Assembly: GCA_958296125.1 (NCBI GenBank)
Contig: OY282444.1
Location: 1,793,940 to 1,857,939, forward strand
Direction: 5' to 3'
Source of the DNA: an uncultured Poribacteria bacterium
Lineage (GTDB): Bacteria; Poribacteria; WGA-4E; PCPOR2b
DNA: 64,000 nucleotides
The position numbers were made by a program, and so were the translations under genes. How positions within the stretch are numbered: the first letter of the stretch is position 1; every line of letters starts with the position of its first letter. The notes under the pieces are model-generated. The model was not told where the DNA came from, searched no databases, and was given only the letters and a program-made list of their open reading frames with translations. Shown piece by piece: positions 25,347 through 51,185 of the stretch.

Positions 25347-25418
25347 ATGGATTTTTGTATATTTTTATCTTTTTTAGATTCGACAGAATTTAGCAGAATG
25401 GAGATGAACAAGAAATGA
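25347..25418 (+). CDS. 23-codon upstream ORF overlapping the sigma-factor start
   Basis: ATG 25347 stands 3 bases after AGGAGG (25338-25343) and opens [20 protein letters not shown] then NKK and TGA. The TGA (25416-25418) overlaps the sigma-factor ATG (25415-25417) as ATGA, a classic coupling arrangement. The peptide is Phe/Leu/Ser rich and AT-rich in codon use. It may be a leader that couples or attenuates sigma-factor translation. The spacing of only 3 bases to the AGGAGG is short, so the start is uncertain. Confidence 0.45.
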
Positions 25419-26812
25419 GTAAAGCACGTAAATTCACGCATAGTGGAACTGGCGATGAGCGAGCGAACGAGCTGGAATTTCACGACAACGATGAGCTCCT
25501 GTCAGCAGTGCCCACTGATGAAACGAATGCAGTTGATGAGGAAGAAAGTATCACGGAAGATACGACAGAAGATAGTTTGATTTCTTCCTTTCGACAACGC
25601 AGCGATGTTACCGATGGTACCCGAGATGAAGCTTTTTCTTATCTGCAAGAGATTGCTCGCACCCCCTTGCTTACGCCTGAAAAAGAGGTCGAACTGTTTC
25701 AACAGTTTGAAGTGGGAAAACAGGAGGTAACAAAGTTATTGGATCAGCTTCCACCTCGTATTTTAGAAGAAGTGCGTCCCAAAACCGGGCGGCGACGTGG
25801 TGCCAAACAGAAGGAAACGCAGGGCATTTGGTGGAGTCCAATGCACATCGCTACACTTTTGGAACAAATTCAAAAGGCAATCAAGACTTACCAAAAGCAC
25901 ATTGAGGCAGATGTTGCAACGACATTAAGCGATCAGGTTGAAGAGTGTGAACGCCTCGCAACCCTATGGATCGACTTAGGCGACGCTGTTCAAATTATTC
26001 AGGATGCGAAGTTGAAAATTGTTGAGGCCAACCTGCTGCTTGTTGCGAGTATTGCCAAACAGCATAATTTCAACAAATCATCACTTTCCTTCCTTGACCT
26101 CATGCAGGAGGGAAGTGTTGGCTTGATGAAGGCTGTGGAGAAATTCGATCTCACAAGAGGGTATCGCTTCAGCACCTATGCGACATGGTGGATCATGCAA
26201 GCGATCAAGCGTGCCTTGGATCAGCAGAGCCAGACAATTCGCATTCCCTGTTACGTTGGGGAAACCCGGAGATCTATCAAGCAGGCACAGAGCCGACTTG
26301 CTAGAGATCTCGAGTGTGAACCGGGCATCAAAGACATTGCCGAAGAGGTAGAGATGCCTGAAAGCCGTGTCGTCGAAATTCTCCAAAGCACGAAGGGTAC
26401 AATTTCGCTGGACTCGCCATTGAGCGAATCTTCACCTGATGCAACGATTTCTGACTTACTGGCTGATGACTCACAGGTGACCCCTGAGGAGGAATTGCTT
26501 TCTAACTCAGAAAGAGAGTCGCTTGAAGCGGTACTCGATACCTTAGCGGTTCGTGAAACACTTGTAATCAAGCTCCGCTACGGCTTGACCAATGACACGG
26601 AGCACACCCTTGCCCAGTTTGAACAGCTGCTTGGCATTAGCCGAGAACAGGTACGTCAAGAAGACGGCTTGACCGATGGCACGGAGCACACCCTTGCCCA
26701 GATTGGACGGCTGCTTGGCATTAGCCGAGAACGGGTACGTCAAATCGAAGATGAGGCACTCAGGAAGTTGCGCCATCATACGCGAGTGCAATACCTTCAA
26801 GAGCTTCTCTAA
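25415..26812 (+). CDS. Sigma-70 family RNA polymerase sigma factor with duplicated region 4.2
   Basis: A 465-residue sigma factor of the RpoD/group-2 class. After an acidic N-terminal ~70 residues come region 1.2 ([20 protein letters not shown]), region 2 ([20 protein letters not shown] then [19 protein letters not shown]), region 3, and region 4 (about 370-465). The helix-turn-helix of region 4.2 occurs twice in tandem: [20 protein letters not shown] and [20 protein letters not shown], each ending RE(Q/R)VRQ. It is a 28-residue in-frame duplication. Its ATG overlaps the stop of a 23-codon upstream ORF. Confidence 0.88.
26582..26749 (+). repeat. 84-bp tandem duplication inside the sigma-factor gene
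   Basis: Bases 26582-26665 and 26666-26749 align without gaps with 10 mismatches in 84, four of them in the last six bases. The period is 28 codons, so the frame is kept. Each unit encodes one helix-turn-helix. Confidence 0.9.
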
Positions 26813-37075: not shown

Positions 37076-40000
37076 TTACTTTAAGATCAGCATCTTGCGA
37101 GTAGCAGAGAAGTCACCGGCACTAAGGCTATAGAAGTAAATGCCACTGGCAACCTGTTCCCCGAATCGGTTTCTGCCATCCCAGTAGATAGCTTTGGCTC
37201 TCGACTCATAAACCGCTGCGGTTTGATGGCCGAGGTCAAGGATTCGCACCACTCGCCCGGTGGAATCGTAGAGGGTCAACGTAACATCGGCATCTTCTGC
37301 CAGACGATACGGAATCCACGTTTCAGGGTTGAACGGATTTGGATAGTTCCGAAGCAGTTCAGTCTCTGCCGGAATCTCATAAGCGATGAGATCTTCCATC
37401 TCAAGGATACCGCTTTTCACATCATCTACTGTAACGATATGACGCATCGGCTTGACCCCAATCAACGGATCTGGTGAATCAACGGAAATCTCAATGACAT
37501 CGCCAACTCGTGCGGCGTGAGCGTCATTGAGGTCAACAAAGGTCATATTGTATCCACCCCCGGGGCTGGAACGGACTGCTGCCGTTTCATCGGAGGTGAT
37601 CCGGCTGAGTGAAGTTTTTGTTGACAGGTTCTTCACCTTGACGCGGAATCCTTCCCTTGCGAGGCCGGTGCCTTCGTCAACAACAGCCCCGTGGACATCA
37701 AGGACCGGGGTTTGACTGTCAACCTTGTATCCAGCGAGCGCAATGGGTGCAGCCCCCGCCATCGTGTCGTTAGTCCACCCGTCCCCGGTGACCGTTGCAG
37801 AAGCATCAGCAGTCGCCGTTATGAGATATGCTGCGTCTCCCATGACGGGCCCGTCTCCGGGGTCCCCGGCTTGGCTGATGGCTTGGAAGTTGCCGTCGAT
37901 TGAAACAATGATGTTTGCGACACTCCCACCGAACAGCGTTATGAGGTCGCTGATATTGGTTACGCTTGCATCGTTGAGGGGCAGCCCGACGAGGTTCTGG
38001 CCCGCATTGAGGTTAATGGTGCCATCCTCCCACGCCTCACCGGTGAAGGTGACCGTTGTGTCGGCGGTCATCGAGAGGATGATACCCAGGTCGGCGGTAA
38101 TCGGCACGGCATCGCTGCGGCTATTCCACGAACTGCCATCATAGATGGTGGCGAGCGTGGCAGCATCGCCAAGCATCTCGCGGAGATCGCCCACAGTGTC
38201 GAGGCCTTCAACCTTGAGTGGCACGTGGAACAAGCTGACCCCTGCCGGTATCATCGAAGTGTATTCGAGGCTGTTTTGTAACATAACCATTGCAGAGGCC
38301 ATGCCACTATTGCCGGCAGCATCCATCGCTGTCACCGTGATGGTTTGCATACCGTTCATCGCTTCGTTATCTGCACTGATAGTCACTTCAGCACTGTAAA
38401 CATCCTCTGCCATAGTCAGTGCGACTGTCATTTGCGTTGAATCCAGCATTGAGACATCCGCCACAACCGAAGCAATCGCTCCGGCATCTGTAACGGTAGC
38501 CGTAATCATCACCATCTCCCCGTTTGAAACGGTATCAGGCGATGCGGTTACTGTTACCGCCGGTGCCATTGTGTCAACGGTCAACATCCCCGCAGACAAG
38601 CCCGAACCTGTTTCCGTGAGCGTAACCGTTACCTCATGGACTCCATCGTGTAGGTCCGCAACGGCTGTATAGGTGCCGGTATAGGTCCCTTCAGGCGACT
38701 CGGTCATTGCGGCTCCAGTCACAATCGAACCGATCGAAAAGGTTAGCATCTGACTTGCGGTGCCGGTGGCGTTGATCGTTACGATATCCCCCGTCTTCGC
38801 CATAGTTGTATCAATCGAAGCGGTTAGAAGGGTTATCATATCGGTCGTAACCGTCACTGCATGCGCTGCCGGTGTTAGGTTCGGCGCGCTCGCGGTGATC
38901 GTCGCTGCCCCAACGGTCGAATCCATGTAGTAGACCATCGCTGAAACATCACCGGTAGGAATAGTCACGGTGATGGCTTCGGTCCCTGCCGCCTCAGCGG
39001 TCTCAGCGAAGGTGCCGGCTGAAGTTGAGGTCAGGGTGACATCTACATCGGTCCCCATCGCGGTCTCATTGCCATCAGCATCTCGCAGCCCAACCGTGAT
39101 CGCCAGCGGCATTGCCCCGGCATCGGCAGAAACGGCACCGGCACTGCTCAACGAAAGCTGGCTCGGTGTGGAGTCTTGGACTCTAACCTGAACGTCGGCT
39201 ACAATCGGCTCGCCATCAAACAGAATCTTGAACGGCGTAACTTCACGATTCGCAGGCGCGTCGGCATTCTCATAGGTGAAGATAATCTCATCACCCGCTT
39301 CCACCTCAAGCCCCCCTAGTTTCACGCGGGCAACCATATCCCGGCCGACGGGGTCCAATTTTTCCACACTCACCGTCGTCGAGGCACCTTGGTGCCTGTG
39401 CACCACGGTGTAGGTCCCTTTGTCCTCCTCTGAAGCGGCAGCACTGTTGGGTGTTGTCCACGGAGCAGGAACTTGAACTCGGAACTCACGGGGCGCGTCA
39501 ATGATACCGACAGCGGTGTAGGTAAACGTAAGATCCACCCCCGTCGCACCTGCTTGGACAATCTTCGGTGTAACGGTCCCTGAACCGGAACCCGGTCTCG
39601 CTTCGCCGATATCAACGGTAAGCATTGTCGTCTCGCCGGAGACATTGACATACGAATCGGCTGCGTCACCGCCGTGAACTGCAACGGCAAATGCAACACC
39701 CGTCCCTGCGGCAGGCTGCACATCACCTGTGTAGACAAACGTCACGGTCCCGTTGGCACTCAGATTGACACCCTCAACGATGACCATTTGGCCATCAAAG
39801 GTGGGCGAAAATGCAGGTGTTACCGTTACCGTCTCCGCACTCGGCGCAGACCAGCCAGCGGGGATGGCCAATCGAACCTTGCCCCCAATCATTTGACCCG
39901 CCGCAGTGTAGGTGACGGTCAGCTCACGATCGGTATCCCCGGTATGGAGTGCCGCATCGCCATCGGTTACGGCAAGGACTGCTTTACCTTTCCCACTCGC

Positions 40001-43000
40001 TTGTGGATTGACCGTTATCGTCGGTTGCGTGCGTAGCGGTGCAAGGTTACCACCTTGATGTCCCCGAATCGCAACCCGAAACGCATCGGTGCCTGTTGTA
40101 GCGGAGGCTACCGCACGCCCGGTGCCGGTCGCACCATAGGTGATTTTGATAGTATTGGTTTTGTCAAGCGAAAAGATAGGCACGTTCACAGAGAACTTAT
40201 TATCGTCTGTGGCGGAGCCAAGCCCAACACCTTCCACTTCGGTATACCCCGGCTCGCCAACCTCTTCAACTTGGGGTTTACTCCAGCTCGATGGCACGGT
40301 AATTTTCAACTCCCCATCTTCAATGGTCTGGCTCGGGGTGTAGGTAAATACCAATTTCACATCGTCCGCAGCTGCACGAACCGTTGTCGTATCAACTGCC
40401 ACGGTTCCGGTGCCGTCCAATGCACTGGTTACTTTGATTTGTAGGACACCGGGCTTATCTTTATAAATCTTCCCCGTCTTGTCAGGGTTTCTTAGCTTCT
40501 CCCGGTCCTTGTGCTCCAAATCACTGGTAATGAGGGCGAAAACGCCGTCCCCACCCCCATCGGATTTAATCGTGAAGTCGGCGGTCCCAACAACGTCCTG
40601 AACCTCTGCACCGACATCGGCACCGGTCCCACCGCCATAGATAAATCGGAAACTTCCACCTTTGGCGAGCTTATCAATCGTTGCGATCACGAGGCTGTTG
40701 CCGATTTCCAATGAGGAGACCCCCGAACCGCGCGTCGTTATGTAATTCCGCTTTTGAGGGTCATTCTGCAGCGAACCCCAACCCGATGGAAGCTCGAGGC
40801 TTACCGCGCCCCCGTCCATCGTGCCTGCCGCTGTGAACGTCACCTCTAGTGCCCGATGACTACTGCCCGCCTCGATTGAGGCCGGTGATAGCACCGCAGT
40901 CCCCTTACCATCGCTGATATTGCCCAGCGTGACCGTAACCGTCCCGGCCGTCCGGGTGCTCGCACCTGAGGAGGTTCTAAATGTGCCGGTTACTTTGACA
41001 TCAGCGGCAACATGATGTAACACCGCTGCCTTGCCATCATCAGCCGTGCTACCATATCTAATCGTGACGAACTCACCGACATCCAGCTGCCCAACCGCAA
41101 CGGTGATCGTCCGACCGGAGACCGTGATCTCATCGTTCCCAACGCTCCCCGTGCCTCCGCTCTTTTTCGCTTGGCCATCGACTGCTATCCGGCCCGCCAC
41201 CCCTTTCGTCTTCGTCGGTGCACTGCCCAACGCGGACGGGATGGTCAACCGAACCAAGCCACCCCTTATCGGTGTCGATTCCGCTGTAAACTTGAAATCG
41301 ATGGTGGCATCACTGCCGGCATCGAACGTGCTGGGGCCATCGATTGCAAATGTTATCGCATCCCCCGATGTCTTTACAACGGAGAGGGTCGGTGCCTCAT
41401 TCACATCTGTGGTGGTCGGATCGTCCACAAGTTTCGCTGTCGAACCTCCAACCGTCACCGTCCAGGGATACTCGTTCGCTTCGGCTACGATGTTGACCCT
41501 GCGGATTCTCGCCGTTACCGTTTTCCCCTTCTTAACGGTGATACCTGTCCAAGTTATCGTCGTAGCAGTTACCCCTAAACTATCTGACTCCGAACCGGTG
41601 ACATACCCGTAGGCAGCAGAGTTGTCGTCCTGGAGCACCTGATCGGCATCGGGATCTATGACAATCCCGGTCGGAGTAATCACGATCGTTGTGTTGGTAA
41701 GATCGGTATACGCGGTATACGTTAGGGTGATATCGCGACGCTGCGAACCCGCCTCCACTGAAACCGGCGACAGATCCACCTTACCAGAACCGGCACTGTT
41801 AATTATCACCCCGCCCTCGATCACCGCTCCATCCGCCCCGGTTGGTTCTGTTGTGATGTGTACCACGAAAGCACTTCGATTAATATTATCAGGATCAGCA
41901 GAACGAGTAAAAGCATTATCGGGAATCGCGGTGTCGCGAGTATAGGAGACGATAACTTGCTGTCCTATATCTATCTTAGTCATGGGGATCGTTATGAAGT
42001 CCCCCTCATTACCGATGATGTTGATATTAGCCTCAGGGGTTACCGTAGGATCACCAATAGTTGCCCCGCCCCTTTGTCTCACATAAACTTGCTTTGACGA
42101 GGTATCACCAACATCCGCTTCTGCAATGCCATCGTCATCCGGTTGGAGAGTGTTCGGTATATATATTATTAGATCCCGACCATACATCGGCCCAGGGGCC
42201 GTAAAGGTAATGTCAAAGGAAATCTTTGCCTCGCCCGGGAAGACTCGCCCCGGTTTAATCACAACCTTTCTTTCGAGGGGGTCTCGATCGTTATCCTTAT
42301 CTCCTATGATATTGCCAACCCTGACTACTGGTAGAACCGATAACAGATTCAGAACACGGTCCCTGGGAGCCTCACTGCATTGGAATGGATAGCCAAAATA
42401 CATGACATCATCGGCAGTATTGGTGGTCCCCCGCTTGTCCGTGCTAGGCAGACTCCTAGGGATAGCGGCAGTCACATCACCCAATCGAATGATGAGGGCT
42501 TGATTAGGAATATCCCTCCCGGAACCCCAAGCTGAACCGAGGGTGACGGTTATCCGCTGGTCCGCTGTAAAGTCTACATTTGTCACGCTGTTATTATCTG
42601 CGAGGTTAGCACCTCTGGTGACAGTGCCATCTTCATCCGTTGCGTATATCACGGTCCCATTATCAGCCTTAACGGACAGGAACTTGTTAGAAACCTTCCA
42701 ACCCGGTGGTATCGCAATCCGAAACCGACCGCCAATTAGGTTTTCAGTCGTTGGCAGGTAGGTAAATTCCAGAACATTGCGAACACTGCCCGCAGCAAGA
42801 GGGGGAGGATCATTCATAAGCATCGCGGGGACCGTGACGGCCGAGGTGGCATCAGAGCGGTGCCCCCATTTTACCCCTACAGATCTTCCTGCTTCTGATT
42901 TGCTGATGTTTAAAGCATAGCTGCCCCCACTGGCCGGTCTCGGAGGCTCAAAGTCGCTCCCGTTTTTGACCTCGATAGTGAATGTATACCCAGTTGTCAC

Positions 43001-43954
43001 GCTAGGGGTAGGGACAACTGCCTTAAAGACTATGTAATAGCTACCAGCCGCCGCAGTTTGAGTGCTTTCCGCTTTGATCACACCATCCAAGGCTTGTGTT
43101 AGATCCGGAAGTGAAACATTTGCCCCTGTGATAGTCCCCCCCAGGGCAGTGTCATCCGGGGCCGCATTCGTAGTAAAGACATAGCCATTTATGCCCGTTA
43201 CAGTGCCATCCTCCGGATTCGGATCCACTATCTCGAACCCGTCTGGGACATCAACACTCAACCCATCATTGCTAGTAGTTCCAATCCATGCCATCTTAAC
43301 GGCTACCGTGTAAGTGCGACCGGCACCCCCCTCCACATCAGCCTTACTGGCGACCGAGGAGCCATCAGCTGAAAAAAAGTGGAACGATATCGATTGATCC
43401 GTCGGGGCGATGTTTAAAACATAGCTGCCCGCACTGGACGGGTTCGGAGCCCCAAAATTGCCGCCAGCACCGCCGCTTTTGACCGTGGAAGTGAATGTAT
43501 AACTAGTTGTCACGCTAGGGTCAGGGAAAACTGCCTTAAAGACTATGTAATAGCTACCAGACGCCGCAGTTTGAATATCGTCTATTGTGACCGTGCCATT
43601 CGAGGCTCGGGCTATACGTAGATGTCTACCATTTGCCGTTGGGAAAGTCCCCCCCAGGGCAGTGTCAGCCGGGGCCGACCGCGAAGTAAAGACATAGCCA
43701 TTTATTCCCGTTTCTGCTCCACTCCCATCCGGATCCACTATCGTGAACTCGTCTGGGACATCAACACGAAGCCCATCATTGTTAGTAGTTCCAGACCATA
43801 CCAGCTTAACGGCTACCGTGTAAGTGCGACCGGCACCACCCCCCTCCACATCAGTCTTAGTGAAGGCCGAGGAGCCATCCTCTGAAAAAAAGTGGAACGT
43901 TATCGTTTCAGTCGGCGCGGCCTCGTCAATGAACAAGCCCGCAACCAACATCAA
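37076..43954 (-). CDS. Giant modular surface protein A, out-of-frame start (phase OFF)
   Basis: A 2292-codon frame, minus strand. Two head repeats of about 160 residues start at about 18 and 190 (xITFHFF/ISFHFF...). The body (about 380-1590) is a row of Ig-like beta domains marked by EAGSxxRxxxVTFTAAG and (I/V)PSGWG-like motifs. Two more Ig-like units follow (about 1590-1890), then a VPLKVEGLDTVGDLREMLGD domain, and a C-terminal sorting-type domain (2199-2292) with NYPNPFNPETWIPY and ending SATRKMLILK. The ATG corresponding to gene B's start (44167-44169) is out of frame: the 16-unit repeat sends it to a TAA just after the array. TTG 43954 or ATG 43951 is only the first in-frame internal start and splits the signal peptide. 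With 14 or 17 units the gene would read MIE...signal peptide. Confidence 0.88.
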   Translation of the reverse strand: MMLVAGLFIDEAAPTETITFHFFSEDGSSAFTKTDVEGGGAGRTYTVAVKLVWSGTTNNDGLRVDVPDEFTIVDPDGSGAETGINGYVFTSRSAPADTALGGTFPTANGRHLRIARASNGTVTIDDIQTAASGSYYIVFKAVFPDPSVTTSYTFTSTVKSGGAGGNFGAPNPSSAGSYVLNIAPTDQSISFHFFSADGSSVASKADVEGGAGRTYTVAVKMAWIGTTSNDGLSVDVPDGFEIVDPNPEDGTVTGINGYVFTTNAAPDDTALGGTITGANVSLPDLTQALDGVIKAESTQTAAAGSYYIVFKAVVPTPSVTTGYTFTIEVKNGSDFEPPRPASGGSYALNISKSEAGRSVGVKWGHRSDATSAVTVPAMLMNDPPPLAAGSVRNVLEFTYLPTTENLIGGRFRIAIPPGWKVSNKFLSVKADNGTVIYATDEDGTVTRGANLADNNSVTNVDFTADQRITVTLGSAWGSGRDIPNQALIIRLGDVTAAIPRSLPSTDKRGTTNTADDVMYFGYPFQCSEAPRDRVLNLLSVLPVVRVGNIIGDKDNDRDPLERKVVIKPGRVFPGEAKISFDITFTAPGPMYGRDLIIYIPNTLQPDDDGIAEADVGDTSSKQVYVRQRGGATIGDPTVTPEANINIIGNEGDFITIPMTKIDIGQQVIVSYTRDTAIPDNAFTRSADPDNINRSAFVVHITTEPTGADGAVIEGGVIINSAGSGKVDLSPVSVEAGSQRRDITLTYTAYTDLTNTTIVITPTGIVIDPDADQVLQDDNSAAYGYVTGSESDSLGVTATTITWTGITVKKGKTVTARIRRVNIVAEANEYPWTVTVGGSTAKLVDDPTTTDVNEAPTLSVVKTSGDAITFAIDGPSTFDAGSDATIDFKFTAESTPIRGGLVRLTIPSALGSAPTKTKGVAGRIAVDGQAKKSGGTGSVGNDEITVSGRTITVAVGQLDVGEFVTIRYGSTADDGKAAVLHHVAADVKVTGTFRTSSGASTRTAGTVTVTLGNISDGKGTAVLSPASIEAGSSHRALEVTFTAAGTMDGGAVSLELPSGWGSLQNDPQKRNYITTRGSGVSSLEIGNSLVIATIDKLAKGGSFRFIYGGGTGADVGAEVQDVVGTADFTIKSDGGGDGVFALITSDLEHKDREKLRNPDKTGKIYKDKPGVLQIKVTSALDGTGTVAVDTTTVRAAADDVKLVFTYTPSQTIEDGELKITVPSSWSKPQVEEVGEPGYTEVEGVGLGSATDDNKFSVNVPIFSLDKTNTIKITYGATGTGRAVASATTGTDAFRVAIRGHQGGNLAPLRTQPTITVNPQASGKGKAVLAVTDGDAALHTGDTDRELTVTYTAAGQMIGGKVRLAIPAGWSAPSAETVTVTPAFSPTFDGQMVIVEGVNLSANGTVTFVYTGDVQPAAGTGVAFAVAVHGGDAADSYVNVSGETTMLTVDIGEARPGSGSGTVTPKIVQAGATGVDLTFTYTAVGIIDAPREFRVQVPAPWTTPNSAAASEEDKGTYTVVHRHQGASTTVSVEKLDPVGRDMVARVKLGGLEVEAGDEIIFTYENADAPANREVTPFKILFDGEPIVADVQVRVQDSTPSQLSLSSAGAVSADAGAMPLAITVGLRDADGNETAMGTDVDVTLTSTSAGTFAETAEAAGTEAITVTIPTGDVSAMVYYMDSTVGAATITASAPNLTPAAHAVTVTTDMITLLTASIDTTMAKTGDIVTINATGTASQMLTFSIGSIVTGAAMTESPEGTYTGTYTAVADLHDGVHEVTVTLTETGSGLSAGMLTVDTMAPAVTVTASPDTVSNGEMVMITATVTDAGAIASVVADVSMLDSTQMTVALTMAEDVYSAEVTISADNEAMNGMQTITVTAMDAAGNSGMASAMVMLQNSLEYTSMIPAGVSLFHVPLKVEGLDTVGDLREMLGDAATLATIYDGSSWNSRSDAVPITADLGIILSMTADTTVTFTGEAWEDGTINLNAGQNLVGLPLNDASVTNISDLITLFGGSVANIIVSIDGNFQAISQAGDPGDGPVMGDAAYLITATADASATVTGDGWTNDTMAGAAPIALAGYKVDSQTPVLDVHGAVVDEGTGLAREGFRVKVKNLSTKTSLSRITSDETAAVRSSPGGGYNMTFVDLNDAHAARVGDVIEISVDSPDPLIGVKPMRHIVTVDDVKSGILEMEDLIAYEIPAETELLRNYPNPFNPETWIPYRLAEDADVTLTLYDSTGRVVRILDLGHQTAAVYESRAKAIYWDGRNRFGEQVASGIYFYSLSAGDFSATRKMLILK

Positions 43955-44160
43955 ACTGATAACTAAAAATACGCCGCTTTTACGTTTTTGGATTAATGGG
44001 CTTTGAGTGGCTTTGAGTGGCTTTGAGTGGCTTTGAGTGGCTTTGAGTGGCTTTGAGTGGCTTTGAGTGGCTTTGAGTGGCTTTGAGTGGCTTTGAGTGG
44101 CTTTGAGTGGCTTTGAGTGGCTTTGAGTGGCTTTGAGTGGCTTTGAGTGGCTTTGAGTAG
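43955..44160 (-). other. Out-of-frame leader and signal-peptide start of surface protein A
   Basis: Bases 43955-44000 encode, in the frame of gene A, SPLIQKRKSGVFLVISL, which matches SPLTQQHKRCVFLVISL of gene B and continues into the signal peptide. The decamer array 44001-44160 lies upstream. In the frame of the ATG at 44169 the sequence reads KATQSHSKPL units and stops at TAA; a second frame opened by TTG 44165 stops at TAA 43980-43982. No start codon occurs in the required frame. Confidence 0.75.
44001..44160 (-). repeat. 10-bp tandem repeat, 16 units
   Basis: Fifteen perfect copies of CCACTCAAAG (minus strand) plus one degenerate copy (CTACTCAAAG) next to the start codon. 160 bases is 53 codons plus one base, which puts the ATG at 44169 out of frame with gene A. 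The unit is open in all three frames and encodes the same cyclic peptide, PLKATQSHSK, in each. Confidence 0.97.
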
Positions 44161-44311
44161 TTCAATCATCGTTCTCCTAAAATAAAAACCCTTTCGGGTA
44201 AAATGCTAGAATGGAGACAGGGGGGCACCTGCATAGAACGGTCAACTGACCAAAGTCAATCCCATACAGGTAGTTCCCACAACTTGCCCTGTCAAAACTA
44301 AGAAACAATTA
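44161..44311 (-). promoter_or_regulatory. Duplicated upstream region of surface protein A
   Basis: These 151 bases match 51177-51327 with only two mismatches. On the minus strand they hold TTGACA with a weak -10, an alternative TTGACT-18-TATGCA pair, a perfect GGTCAACTGACC-type palindrome, a small ACCC-GAAA-GGGT hairpin followed by a T-rich run, and AGGAG before ATG. It begins only 7 bases after the stop of gene B. Confidence 0.55.
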
Positions 44312-44318
44312 GCTGATG

Positions 44319-47300
44319 TTACTTTAGAATCAGCATCTTACGGGTGGCAGAGAAGTCACCGGCACTAAGGCTGTAGAAGTAAATGCCACTAGCAACCTGT
44401 TCCCCGAATCGGTTTCTGCCATCCCAGTAGATAGCTTTGGCTCTCGACTCATAAACCGCTGCGGTTTGATGGCCGAGATCAAGGGTTCTCACCACCCGCC
44501 CGGTAGAATCGTAGAGGGTCAACGTAACATCGGCATCTTCTGCCAGACGATACGGAATCCACGTTTCTGGGTTGAACGGATTTGGATAGTTCCGAAGCAG
44601 CTCGGTCTCTGCCGGAATCTCATAAGCGATGAGGTCTTCTATCTCAAGGATACTGCTTTTCACATCATCTACTGTAACGATGTGGCGCATCGGCTTAACC
44701 CCAATCAACGGATCTGGTGAATCAACGGAAATCTCAATGACATCGCCGACCCGTGCGGCATGAGCGTCATTAAGGTCAACAAAGGTCATATTGTATCCGA
44801 TCGCTGCCGTTTCATCGGAGGTGATCCGACTGAGTGAAGATTTTGTTGATAGGTTCTTCACCTTGACGCGGAAGCCTTCCCTTGCGAGTCCAGTGACTTC
44901 GTCAACAACAGCCCCGCGGACATCAAGGACCGGGGTTTGACCGTCAACCTTGTATCCAGCGAGCGCAATAGGTGCAGCCCCCGCCATCGTGTTGTTAGTC
45001 CACCCGTCCCCGGTGAGCGTTGCAGAAGCATCAGCAGTTGCCGTTATGAGATATGCTGCGTCCCCCATGACAGGCCCGTCTCCGGGATCCCCGGCTTGGC
45101 TGATGGCTTGGAAGTTACCGTCGGTTGAAACAATGATGTTTGCGACACTCCCATCAAACAGCGTTATGATGTCGCTGATATTGGTCACGCTCGCATCGTT
45201 GAGAGGCAGCCCGACAAGGTTCTGTCCCGCTTGGAGATTGATGGTGCCATCGTCCCACGCATCGCCGGTGAAGGTGACCGTTGTGTCAGCGGTCATCGAA
45301 AGGACAATCCCCAGGTCAGCGGTTATCGGCACGTCCCCGCTGCGACTATTCCACGAATTGCCATCATAGATGGTGGCGAGCGTGGCAGCATCGCCAAGCA
45401 TCTCGCGGAGATCGCCCACGGTGTCGAGGCCTTCGACTTTAAGTGGCACGTGGAACAAGCTAACCCCTGCCGGTATCATCGAAGTATATTCGAGACTATT
45501 TTGTAACATAACCGTTGCAGAGGCCATGCCACTATTACCGGCGGCATCCATCGCTGTCACCGTGATGGTTTGCATACCGTTCATCGCTTCGTTATCTGCA
45601 CTGATGGTTACTTCAGCACTGTAAGCACCATCTGAAGCGTCATCTGCCATGGTCAGTGCGACCGTCGTTTGCGTTGAATCCAGCATTGAGACATCCGCCA
45701 TCACCGAAGCAATCGCTCCAGCATCTGTAACCGTAGCCGTGATCGTCACCATCTCCTCGTTTGCAACGGCGTCAGGAGATGCGGCAACCGTTACCGCCGG
45801 TGCCATCGTGTCAACGGTCAACATCCCCGCAGACAGGCTCGAACCTGTTTCCGTAAGCGTAACCGTGACCTCATGGATTCCATCGTGTAGGTCCGCAACG
45901 GCTGTATAGCTGCCGGTATAGGTCCCTTCAGGTGACTCGGTCATTGATGCCCCAGTCACAATCGAACCGATCGAGAAGGTTAGCATCTGATTCGCGGTGC
46001 CGGTGGCGGTGACCGTTACAGTGTCCCCCACCTTCGCCATCGTTGTATCAATCGAAGCGGTTAGAAGGGTTATCATATCGCTCGTGACCGTCACCTCATG
46101 CGTTGCCGGTGTCAGGTTCGGCGCGGTCGCGGTGACCGTCGCTGCCCCAACCGTCGAATCATGGTAGTAAACCATCGCTGCAACATCACCTGTGGGGATA
46201 GTCACAGTAATGGCTTCGGTCCCCGTCGCCTCAGCGGTCTCAGAGAAAATGCCGGCTGAGCTTGAGGTGAGGGTAACATCTACATCGGTCCCCATCGCGG
46301 TCTCATTGCCATTAGCATCTTGCAGCCCAACCGTGATCGCCAGTGGCATCGCCCCGGCATCAGCGGAAACGGCACCGGCACTGCTCAGCGAAAGCTGGCT
46401 CGGTGTGGAGTCTTGGACTCTAACCTGAACGTCGGATGCAACCAGCTTGCCATCAAACAGGATCTTGAACGGCGTAACTTCACGATTCGCAGGCGCGTCG
46501 GCATTCTCGTAGGTGAAAATAATTTTATCACCTGCTTCTACCTCAAGCCCACCCAACTTCACGCGGGCAACCATATCCCGGCCGACAGGGTCCAATTTTT
46601 CCACACTCACCGTCGTCGCGGCACCCCTGTGCCTGTGCACCACGGTGTAGGTTCCCTTGTCCTCCTCTGAAGTGGCAGCATTGTTGGGTGCCGTCCACGG
46701 CGCAGGAACTTGAACTCGGAACTCACGGGGCGCGTCAATGATGCCGACAGCGGTGTAGGTAAACGTCAGGTCCACCCCCGTCGCACCCGCTTGGACAATC
46801 CGCGGTGTAACGGTCCCTGAACCGGAGCCCGGTCTCGCCTCTGCAACATCAACGGTGAGCATTGTCGCGTCGCCTGAGACATCAGCATACGAATCGGCTG
46901 CGTCACCACCGTGAACCGCAACGGCAAAGGTAACACCCGTCCCCGCAGTCGGCTGCACATCACCGGTGTAGACAAACGTCACGGTCCCGTTGGCACTCAA
47001 ATTCACACCCTCAACGATGATCATTTGACCGTCAAAGGTGGACGAAAACGCAGGTGTTACCGTCACCGTCTCCGCACTCGGCGCAGACCAACCAGCGGGG
47101 ATGGTCAACCGAACCTTGCCCCCAATCATTTGACCCGCCGCAGTGTAGGTGACGGTCAACTCGCGGTCAGTATCCCCGGTATGGAGCGCCGCATCGCCAT
47201 CGGTCACGGCAAGGACTGCTTTACCTTTCCCACTCGCCTGTGGGTTGACCGTTATCGTCGGTTGCGTGCGGATCGGTGCAAAGTTGCCACCTTCATGCCC

Positions 47301-50300
47301 CTGAATCGCAATCCGAAACGCATCGGTGCCCGTCGTAGCAGAGGCTACCGCACGCCCGGTGCCGGCAGCACCGTAGGTGATCCTAATACTATTGGTTTTG
47401 TCAAGCGAAAAGATAGGCACCGTCACCGAGAACTTATCATCGTCCGCGGCGGAACCCAACCCAACGCCTTCCACTTCGGTATACCCCGGCTCACCCACCT
47501 CTTCAACTTGGGGTTTACTCCAGCTCGATGGCACGGTAATTTTCAACGCCCCATCTTCAATGGTCTGGCTCGGGGTGTAGGTAAATACCAATATCACATC
47601 GTCCGCAGCCGCACGCACCGTTTCCGTATCAACCGTCGCCGTTCCGGTGCCGTCCAATGCACCGGTCACTTTGATTTGTAAGATACCGGGCCTATCTTTA
47701 TAAATCTTCCCCGTCTTGTCAGGGTTTCTTATCTTCTCCCGGTCCTTGTGCTCCAATTCACTAGTAATGAGGGCGAAAACACCGTCCCCATCCCCATCAG
47801 ATTTAATCGTGAAGTCGGCGGTCCCAACAACGTCCTGAACCTCCGCACCGACATCGGCACCGGTTCCACCGCCGTAGATAAATCGGAAACTCCCACCTTT
47901 GGCGAGCTTATCGATTGTCGCGATCACGAGGTTGCTACCGATTTCCAATGAGGAGACCCCCGAACCGCGCGTCGTTATGTAATTCCGCTTTTGAGGGTCA
48001 TTCTGCATCGAACCCCAACCCGATGGAAGCTCGAGACTTACCGCGCCCCCGTCCATCGTGCCTGCCGCTGTGAACGTCACCTCTAACGCCCGATTACTAC
48101 TGCCCGCCTCTATTGAGGCCGGCGATAGCACCGCAGCAGCCTTACCGTCGACGATATTGCCCAGCGTAACCGTGACCGTCCCGGCCGTCCGGGTGCTCCC
48201 ACCCGAGGCGGTTCTAAAACTACCGGTCACTTCGACATCAGCAGCGACATGATGTAACACCGCCGCCTTCCCGTCGTCATCCGTCCGACCATACCTAATC
48301 GTGACGGAATCACCGACATTTAGCTGCCCAATCGCAACGCTAACCGTCCGACCGGAGACCGTGATCTCATCGTTACCAATAGCCGTTTTCCCACCGCTTG
48401 TTTTAGCATTGCCAAGGACTTGCACCCGGCCCGCCACCCCTTTCGTCTTCGTCGGCGCACTGCCCAACGCGGACGGGATGGTCAACCGAACCAAGCCACC
48501 CCGTATCGGGGTCGACTCCGCTGTAAACTTGAAATTGATGGTCGCCTCACTGCCGGCGGAGAACGTGTCGGCCCCATCGATTGCAAATGTTATCGCATCC
48601 GCTGAGGTCTTCACAACCGAGAGGATCGGGATCTCATTCACACCTGTGGTGGTCGGATCGTCCACAAGGGACGCAGCTCCAACCTCCACATCCCAGGCAT
48701 ACTCAGCCGCATCGGCTATGATGTTGACCCTGCGGATTCTCGCCGTTACCGTTTTCCCTTTCTTAACGCTAATACTTGTCCAAGTCAGCTTATCCGCAGC
48801 TACCGTTAAACTATCAGACTCCGAACCGGTGACATACCCGTAGGCAGCAGAGTTATCATCCTGGAGTATCTGATCGGCACTGGCATCTATGACAAGCCCC
48901 TTCGGCTCTATCTCTATCGTTGTGTTGCTAAGATCGGTATACGCGGTATACGTCACGGTGATATCGCGACGCTGCGAACCCGCCTCCACTGAAACCGGCG
49001 ACAGATCCACCTTACCAGAACCGCCGACAGCAATCCACCGACCACCACTCACCTTCGCATCGGCGGTCTCAGATTTGATAAGCGTCGGCTCAACATCAGC
49101 GGCGACACCGCGCTTGACAATGGTCTCCGCGGTGATACCCGCATCAGTGCTACTCCCAATCGCAGCATCGCGAGTATAGGAAACGATAATTTGCTGACCC
49201 GTATCAAGCGTGGTAATCGGGATCGTTAGCTTCGTAGGATTGGTGGCATCACCCGCCGTAACCATCTCGGCACCAATGGCTCCCCCGCCCCGTGTCCACA
49301 CCTTGAAATCACCAGCCACAGGGGTGTCCTTTGGCCCTAAATGGGCCATTCCGACTCCTGCGGGTAGAAAGGATAACGCTAGCTCACTGTTGTGCATCGG
49401 CCCAGGGGCTGTAAAGGTGAGTGTGAATCGGGTCTTTTCCTCGCCCGGGAATACCCGACCCGGTGTGATTTTAAGCTCTCTTGTGAGGGGGTCACGGGTA
49501 TTAGCATTAGAGGTGTCAGCAACCGGCGGACCATCTCCTATGATATTGCCAACCCTAACTACCGGTGAAACCAGTAACAGACGCAGAACATTGTCCCTGG
49601 TGCTGGCACTGCATCGGAATTCATAGCCAGCATACCTGATATCATCGGCCGCATCGGTGTTACCCCGAGTGTCCATGCCAAGCAGACTCCTAGGGATAGG
49701 GGCAGTCACATCACCAAATCGGATGATAAGGGCTTTCTCAACACTCCTCTGGGCATTCCAACTCGAACCGAGGGTGACGGTTATCCGCTTGTCCGCTTCA
49801 AATTCTACATTTGTCACGCTGTTATTATCTGCGAGGTTAGCACCGGTGACGACATTGCCATCTTTATCCGTTTCGTATATCGGCGTTGCACCATCCTTGA
49901 TTGATAGGAACTTGTTAGAAACCTTCCAACCCGGTGGTATCGCAATCCGAAACCGACCGCCAACCATGTTTTCAGTCGTTGGCCTGGGCCTGTAGGTAAA
50001 CTCCAGAACATTGCGAACACTGCCCGCAGCAAGAGGGGGAAGCGGGGTCTTAGGATCCGCCTTGACAATCACCGAGGGCATCGGGTCGGGCAAGTTGGCG
50101 TTAGCACGGTGAGCCCAGCCTATGTTTACTTGGCCCGCGTTGACGAATAAATGCCAGTTTTCGTTGTCACCTACGTCTTGCCTTCTTCTTGTAATACTTT
50201 GATCAGCACTTTCCTCATCTCCTGTCCGCTCTGCAAGCGGAACGAATACAAAATCACCTCGAATTTCCTCTCCTTGAAGGTTTCCATATACAGGTGCCTG

Positions 50301-51185
50301 GTTCATCGGGTCAAATACGGTTAGCCAGAGCGTTCTGTAGTTCGATTCCGTTATTATCGGAGGCGCGACCTGGACGACGGTCGGGGTAGAGACGATGGTC
50401 GTATCGGCCGCGAGCGTCGATACGTCTATGTGCGACGTGTCCAGCTCCCTCCAAGTGCCCCCTGCGTTGACCTGATACCTGAATACAAAGGTCGTGTCCT
50501 TGACAAGGGGACGGATATGTATCAAACAGCTCACTAAGTAGTGAGCTCTCACTACAGCTACGTTATCGGTAGTATCTGGATCCATAGCGGAAATTTGTTG
50601 TTTGATTCTTACCAACTTCTCTCCCTCGTCCACGAATATACCCGTGGAATCGTCCACATCGGGGTCATCGTAAAGCGCGTGACCGGGGAGTGTAGTGTAG
50701 AGACCGGGAGAGAATTCAGTATTAACCATAGATATGCTTCCTGAGTAGAAAGCACGCACCCGAGTCCCCACCAGGGCCTTCCCTTCGGAATTCCGAAGGA
50801 ACTCGACACCGTCTGGGAGCCAAAACTGAAACCCCCGCTTATCGTCGTTATTGTGCGTTGTATACGCAATGGTCAACAGGTAATCACGGCCGCCCCGAAT
50901 ATCCCCCTCGGGAATAATCCATCGATTGGTTGGATCACTAAGGGCGAAACCTATTAGGTCAGAGAATATCCTGCCTTGCGGCGCGGCCTCGTCAATGAAC
51001 AAGCCCGCAACCAACATCAAACTGATAACCAAAAATACGCATCTTTTATGTTGTTGGGTTAATGGGCTTTGAGTGGCTTTGAGTGGCTTTGAGTGGCTTT
51101 GAGTGGCTTTGAGTGGCTTTGAGTGGCTTTGAGTGGCTTTGAGTGGCTTTGAGTGGCTTTGAGTGGCTTTGAGTAGTTCAATCAT
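44319..51185 (-). CDS. Giant modular surface protein B, in frame (phase ON)
   Basis: A 2288-residue secreted protein. Residues 1-50 are MIEL plus repeated LKATQSHSKP decapeptides encoded by the 11-unit array; 51-78 complete a signal peptide (QQHKRCVFLVISLMLVAGLF). The head (about 80-375) is unlike gene A. From PLAAGSVRNVLEFTY (about 382) to the end the two proteins are nearly collinear and highly similar: Ig-like beta domains, then VPLKVEGLDTVGDLREMLGD, then the C-terminal sorting-type domain with NYPNPFNPETWIPY, YWDGRNRFGEQVASGIYFY and RKMLILK. It is probably displayed on the cell surface or released by a type-IX-like or porin-type pathway; none is visible here. ATG 51185 has AGGAG 4 bases upstream. 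Confidence 0.92.
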   Translation of the reverse strand: MIELLKATQSHSKPLKATQSHSKPLKATQSHSKPLKATQSPLTQQHKRCVFLVISLMLVAGLFIDEAAPQGRIFSDLIGFALSDPTNRWIIPEGDIRGGRDYLLTIAYTTHNNDDKRGFQFWLPDGVEFLRNSEGKALVGTRVRAFYSGSISMVNTEFSPGLYTTLPGHALYDDPDVDDSTGIFVDEGEKLVRIKQQISAMDPDTTDNVAVVRAHYLVSCLIHIRPLVKDTTFVFRYQVNAGGTWRELDTSHIDVSTLAADTTIVSTPTVVQVAPPIITESNYRTLWLTVFDPMNQAPVYGNLQGEEIRGDFVFVPLAERTGDEESADQSITRRRQDVGDNENWHLFVNAGQVNIGWAHRANANLPDPMPSVIVKADPKTPLPPLAAGSVRNVLEFTYRPRPTTENMVGGRFRIAIPPGWKVSNKFLSIKDGATPIYETDKDGNVVTGANLADNNSVTNVEFEADKRITVTLGSSWNAQRSVEKALIIRFGDVTAPIPRSLLGMDTRGNTDAADDIRYAGYEFRCSASTRDNVLRLLLVSPVVRVGNIIGDGPPVADTSNANTRDPLTRELKITPGRVFPGEEKTRFTLTFTAPGPMHNSELALSFLPAGVGMAHLGPKDTPVAGDFKVWTRGGGAIGAEMVTAGDATNPTKLTIPITTLDTGQQIIVSYTRDAAIGSSTDAGITAETIVKRGVAADVEPTLIKSETADAKVSGGRWIAVGGSGKVDLSPVSVEAGSQRRDITVTYTAYTDLSNTTIEIEPKGLVIDASADQILQDDNSAAYGYVTGSESDSLTVAADKLTWTSISVKKGKTVTARIRRVNIIADAAEYAWDVEVGAASLVDDPTTTGVNEIPILSVVKTSADAITFAIDGADTFSAGSEATINFKFTAESTPIRGGLVRLTIPSALGSAPTKTKGVAGRVQVLGNAKTSGGKTAIGNDEITVSGRTVSVAIGQLNVGDSVTIRYGRTDDDGKAAVLHHVAADVEVTGSFRTASGGSTRTAGTVTVTLGNIVDGKAAAVLSPASIEAGSSNRALEVTFTAAGTMDGGAVSLELPSGWGSMQNDPQKRNYITTRGSGVSSLEIGSNLVIATIDKLAKGGSFRFIYGGGTGADVGAEVQDVVGTADFTIKSDGDGDGVFALITSELEHKDREKIRNPDKTGKIYKDRPGILQIKVTGALDGTGTATVDTETVRAAADDVILVFTYTPSQTIEDGALKITVPSSWSKPQVEEVGEPGYTEVEGVGLGSAADDDKFSVTVPIFSLDKTNSIRITYGAAGTGRAVASATTGTDAFRIAIQGHEGGNFAPIRTQPTITVNPQASGKGKAVLAVTDGDAALHTGDTDRELTVTYTAAGQMIGGKVRLTIPAGWSAPSAETVTVTPAFSSTFDGQMIIVEGVNLSANGTVTFVYTGDVQPTAGTGVTFAVAVHGGDAADSYADVSGDATMLTVDVAEARPGSGSGTVTPRIVQAGATGVDLTFTYTAVGIIDAPREFRVQVPAPWTAPNNAATSEEDKGTYTVVHRHRGAATTVSVEKLDPVGRDMVARVKLGGLEVEAGDKIIFTYENADAPANREVTPFKILFDGKLVASDVQVRVQDSTPSQLSLSSAGAVSADAGAMPLAITVGLQDANGNETAMGTDVDVTLTSSSAGIFSETAEATGTEAITVTIPTGDVAAMVYYHDSTVGAATVTATAPNLTPATHEVTVTSDMITLLTASIDTTMAKVGDTVTVTATGTANQMLTFSIGSIVTGASMTESPEGTYTGSYTAVADLHDGIHEVTVTLTETGSSLSAGMLTVDTMAPAVTVAASPDAVANEEMVTITATVTDAGAIASVMADVSMLDSTQTTVALTMADDASDGAYSAEVTISADNEAMNGMQTITVTAMDAAGNSGMASATVMLQNSLEYTSMIPAGVSLFHVPLKVEGLDTVGDLREMLGDAATLATIYDGNSWNSRSGDVPITADLGIVLSMTADTTVTFTGDAWDDGTINLQAGQNLVGLPLNDASVTNISDIITLFDGSVANIIVSTDGNFQAISQAGDPGDGPVMGDAAYLITATADASATLTGDGWTNNTMAGAAPIALAGYKVDGQTPVLDVRGAVVDEVTGLAREGFRVKVKNLSTKSSLSRITSDETAAIGYNMTFVDLNDAHAARVGDVIEISVDSPDPLIGVKPMRHIVTVDDVKSSILEIEDLIAYEIPAETELLRNYPNPFNPETWIPYRLAEDADVTLTLYDSTGRVVRTLDLGHQTAAVYESRAKAIYWDGRNRFGEQVASGIYFYSLSAGDFSATRKMLILK
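51067..51176 (-). repeat. 10-bp tandem repeat, 11 units
   Basis: Ten perfect CCACTCAAAG copies plus one CTACTCAAAG copy at the start-codon end. 110 bases is 36 codons plus two bases, which keeps ATG 51185 in frame with the signal peptide and gene B. It differs from the sister array by five units. Confidence 0.97.

Follow-up and report, generated by a model that had tools for sequence, protein, structure and literature searches.

Region 4 of sigma factors is among the most conserved DNA-binding modules of bacteria. In a sponge symbiont belonging to Candidatus Poribacteria, a gene of the sigma-70 family carries the helix-turn-helix (HTH) motif of region 4.2 twice in succession, and the question arises whether the two copies act as a doubled reader of the -35 promoter element, as a preliminary description of the locus had suggested, or whether a single copy serves as the DNA-binding part of an otherwise ordinary domain. 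The source is one metagenome-assembled genome (MAG), which consists of a single contig of 5,156,246 bp and is 98.9% complete; its named relatives are likewise MAGs of Candidatus Poribacteria. In the following, the window is the whole stretch of 64,000 nucleotides that was analysed.

The duplication and the gene that carries it

The repeat consists of two in-frame 84-bp units, which encode residues 390-417 and 418-445 of the protein (Table 1). With respect to length, frame, the 28-residue units, and their positions, the preliminary description proved to be exact, and Tandem Repeats Finder arrived independently at the same result (period 84, 2.0 copies, 92% match, score 286); besides this repeat, the program reported only two 10-bp arrays in the window. 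Both units are predicted to be helical and Pfam Sigma70_r4 (PF04545) was found twice in the ORF, each time above its cut-off (27.6 and 49.1 bits), which is in agreement with the claim that both have kept HTH character. The usual sigma-70 architecture with one region 4 per protein, which is not strictly required for membership, is not present here. Ten differences between the units had been counted, and correctly so; four of these (GAAGAC versus ATCGAA), however, constitute the end of the repeat, and only six are changes that followed the duplication. Because the junction CAA-GAAGA-CGGC resembles CAA(ATC)GAAGA joined to CGGC, the original unit may have comprised 87 bp (..CAAATCGAAGA/CGGC..), one codon (ATC) having been lost later. 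It is thus supported that the sigma factor contains a genuine in-frame duplication of the region 4.2 HTH, the copies of which have diverged. In about 1.26 Mb of the genome, in-frame tandem duplications are common and occur mostly in TPR, WD40, coiled-coil, and linker-type proteins.

Table 1. Location of the features discussed. Positions refer to the window, unless a genome and contig are named.
Feature	Position	Strand	Basis
Sigma-70 family gene, 465 aa, non-primary (group 2/3-like)	25415..26812	+	ORF; Pfam; NCBIfam
Region 2 (-10 recognition, core binding), intact	26018..26230	+	Pfam PF04542, residues 202-272
Region 3, intact, one private R301C	26261..26494	+	Pfam PF04539, residues 283-360
Region 4.1 helices, single copy	26510..26581	+	Alignment of relatives; model
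Copy 1 of the 28-residue unit, diverging, putatively looped-out	26582..26665	+	No counterpart in any relative
Repeat junction CAA/GAAGAC/GGC	26660..26671	+	Sequence reading
Copy 2 of the 28-residue unit, conserved, presumably the working region 4.2	26666..26749	+	Ortholog alignment; model
Remainder of the long C-terminal recognition helix and tail, single copy	26750..26809	+	Alignment; model
RpoD of genus g6 with 22-residue insertion	L073 (G056:C1:13527-13793), L145-L161

The 465-aa protein belongs to the sigma-70 family, as regions 2, 3, and 4 score above the Pfam cut-offs (PF04542, 63.7 bits; PF04539, 55.5 bits; PF04545, 60.8 bits), and so does region 1.2. Its best NCBIfam matches are of the RpoD/SigA type, yet with 250.7 bits (TIGR02393) and 286.9 bits (PRK05658) it stays below the curated RpoD cut-offs of 354 and 555 bits. 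The duplication is not the cause of this failure, because a single-copy ortholog fails as well (258.5 and 293.3 bits). Elsewhere, the genome encodes a normal primary sigma factor (G000:C1:2043005-2043769 and beyond), an RpoD of 594 aa that passes both cut-offs (384.3 and 588.8 bits). The protein with the duplicated HTH is an accessory sigma factor and not the primary one; one half of an objection that the preliminary description had raised against itself, namely that a second, normal primary sigma factor might exist beside an unexpressed one, is thereby borne out. Since the factor is non-primary, the effect of an altered region 4 would be confined to a regulon, and the cell could tolerate it.

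Outside the repeat, the gene evolves under normal purifying selection (dN/dS 0.09-0.13), as it does in the relatives. Its neighbours are genes for an ABC transporter and a pentapeptide-repeat protein and an inositol-phosphatase-like gene, and the gene order around it is kept in the three genus-mates compared. At codon 301 (26315-26317), where the protein has a cysteine, an arginine is fixed in the seven closest relatives compared.

Repeats of a different kind were observed nearby. Two adjacent paralogous genes for surface-type proteins of about 2290 aa (37076-44170 and 44319-51185, both on the minus strand) each contain a perfect 10-bp (ACTCAAAGCC)n array, which begins 11 bases past the ATG. 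In the array of 11 units (51065-51174), the start codon leads into a frame of 2288 aa; in that of 16 units (43999-44158), the frame from the ATG stops after 58. Four further arrays, found in a 1.2-Mb sample, consist of 19, 15, 16, and 4 units and are all out of frame. These genes look like a phase-variable (slipped-strand) family with one of six members ON. At a further site of the source genome (L119, G000:C1:2837066-2838269), a 107-bp unit is repeated 11.3 times with 99% identity and has no open frame across it.

Age and one-sided divergence of the copies

Region 4.2 is single-copy in all five genus-mates and in every other ortholog of the phylum examined; where orthologs were aligned, a gap of 28 residues lies opposite the duplication. 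No second doubled case was found among 59 relatives, all 85 Poribacteria genomes of the collection, and the plasmids, phages, and PDB sequences searched. As the relatives are all single-copy, the duplication is a recent event confined to one genome. The preliminary description had named a single copy in close relatives as an argument against its reading; this argument applies in part.

Compared to the nearest relative available, the sigma gene shows a dS value of about 0.6, whereas copy 1 and copy 2 differ by no change over 19.8 synonymous sites, a value which is not significant alone, as about two changes are expected under neutrality. Considered together, these values suggest that the duplication probably arose long after the species had separated.

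All six changes between the copies are nonsynonymous, and five of them are G to A. They have all occurred in copy 1 (D421N, G422D, I430F, G431E, R432Q, and R440Q, written from copy 2 to copy 1 in copy-2 numbering); at each of these sites, copy 2 possesses the residue of the close relatives. If both copies drifted equally, the probability of finding all six changes on one side would be about 0.03 (2 x 0.5^6). The columns of G422 and R440 are invariant in a family alignment of 17 sequences, and both residues are altered in copy 1, which contains SREQVRQ instead of the SRERVRQ of copy 2 and the relatives. We take R440 to be the equivalent of R586 in E. coli sigma70, which contacts the -35 element; the arginine is kept in copy 2 and absent from copy 1. 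Conserved DNA-contact residues are consequently not present in both HTH units, copy 1 being altered at this arginine and at the invariant glycine. The six nonsynonymous changes are compatible with relaxed constraint and, on six events, with selection for change as well.

Predicted fold of region 4 and competing explanations

For a 113-residue fragment comprising region 4, an AF2 model was generated with 19 sequences. It places the helices of region 4.1 at residues 13-22 and 27-37 of the fragment, those of copy 1 at 43-54 and 58-65, and those of copy 2 at 75-82 and 86-112. The mean pLDDT value is 71.5, and copy 2 is the most confident part (83-87). Foldseek matched the model to solved sigma-4 domains, which are 61-62 residues long, in alignments of 88 columns with TM values (to target) of 0.81-0.85; relative to these domains, the model has about 26 extra residues. 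Such a match would be expected from a canonical sigma-4 domain plus an inserted copy, which is support rather than proof, because the AF2 input alignment was itself gapped over copy 1 and biased the prediction in favour of copy 2. The model obtained from the sequence alone (pLDDT 52) was too poor to choose between the copies, and in a split-row alignment, intended to give copy 1 equal weight, MAFFT still placed everything on copy 2. Region 4 of SigA from T. aquaticus (1ku7, 1rio) and of SigA from S. aureus (4g6d) resembles the predicted fold of region 4.1 plus copy 2; a sequence search of the PDB found no solved chain covering both copies.

Sequence and model make it likely, in our view, that the protein possesses one working sigma-4 domain formed by region 4.1 and copy 2, that copy 1 is a tolerated, decaying insertion, and that activity is neutral to mildly altered. 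What the sequences show is a recent tandem duplication by which, in one Poribacteria lineage, the region 4.2 HTH of a non-primary sigma-70 family factor was doubled, together with its absence from the relatives and the one-sided divergence. With respect to fold, DNA contact, and activity, we infer that one ordinary sigma-4 domain would still be formed, in which region 4.1 packs with copy 2, and that copy 2, which runs on into the long recognition helix at the C-terminus, would read the -35 element. Copy 1 would then form a helical insertion of 28 residues in the 4.1/4.2 loop, located beside the DNA-binding face, and relaxed constraint would presumably allow its binding residues to be lost. Sigma activity would likely be neutral to mildly attenuated or altered, and no second promoter element would be involved.

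The insertion might, alternatively, impair the sigma-4 domain to such an extent that the factor has lost part or all of its activity, with gene loss pending or with the weakening itself selected. For the latter, the attenuated sigma factor of E. coli rpoS819 offers a selected parallel (PMC5444009, PMC7160681), and at sites fixed in the relatives the gene has five private changes including R301C, compared to 0-3 in genus-mates. We nevertheless regard attenuation or decay as rather unlikely: the reading frame is undisturbed, copy 2 is unaltered at the differing sites, and dN/dS of the whole gene is not clearly raised, while the duplication is too young to show decay.

Far less probable is the doubled -35 reader of the preliminary description, in which both HTHs would bind DNA and an extended or tandem -35 element or an altered spacing would be recognised. 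It would account for two units that are both HTH-like and predicted helical, and the exclusively nonsynonymous changes could reflect selection for a new specificity; however, copy 1 lacks the arginine presumably equivalent to E. coli R586 as well as conserved glycines, its recognition helix has no C-terminal extension, and a single region 4.1 is common to both units. With all six changes in copy 1, two of them at family-invariant positions, and with a predicted fold that pairs region 4.1 with copy 2, this proposal is unsupported. We give just as little credence to the related idea that the factor is at an early stage of evolving a second, differently specific HTH in region 4 and recognises an extended or altered -35 element. 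An assembly or consensus error in the single MAG, finally, would explain why the duplication occurs in one genome only and why five of the six changes are G to A, but it is similarly improbable: the genome forms a single 5.16-Mb contig, which makes a short-read repeat artefact unlikely, and a frame-preserving repeat with copy-specific changes in a near-identical context is not readily produced by systematic base-calling error.

Precedents and implications

The nearest precedent is E. coli rpoS819. In this allele, 46 bp at the 3' end of rpoS are duplicated, and the resulting sigma factor is longer, attenuated, and favoured in long stationary phase; rpoS92 is a further version of 92 bp (PMC5444009, PMC7160681). 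Both in these GASP alleles and in the Poribacteria gene, a short segment close to the 3' end of a gene for an alternative sigma factor is repeated in tandem, which makes the C-terminal end longer. The rpoS alleles, however, stem from laboratory evolution, and their C-terminal end is altered, since 46 and 92 are not multiples of three, whereas the 84 bp of the Poribacteria gene are in frame, double the HTH, and keep the natural C-terminus. The orthologs of Candidatus Poribacteria represent the same gene with the same neighbours (within the genus, 86-87% identity when the repeat is left aside), but have only one region 4.2. Other natural in-frame duplications of the region 4 HTH were not found in the collections searched, and a literature search with mainly open-access coverage yielded no paper on a duplicated sigma region 4 or 4.2.

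In the RpoD of genus g6, a 22-residue insertion (RFGI-EDDTVHPLLSEATRKRIDTLGITT-GYPKTLEEVG) is fixed in the 4.1/4.2 loop of 18 out of 18 genomes and absent from all other Poribacteria RpoD inspected. It occupies the same loop as copy 1, but belongs to a primary sigma factor, is genus-wide, and is not recognisably a copy of region 4.2, nor convincingly one of region 4.1 (p about 0.05). This RpoD was considered as a second doubled case and rejected, as the matches spanning both copies proved to contain an unrelated insertion; a test by shuffling gave no convincing evidence (p 0.02-0.17) that this insertion goes back to an ancient tandem duplication of region 4.1. Its fixation indicates that, even in a primary sigma factor, long insertions can be accommodated in the 4.1/4.2 loop.

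If the duplicated sigma factor is inactive, it would be a young loss-of-function allele and as such ordinary. If it is active, the 4.1/4.2 loop can hold a whole extra HTH, a view which the g6 RpoD insertion strengthens, and the protein would lend itself to the question of how sigma factors could diversify in their specificity.
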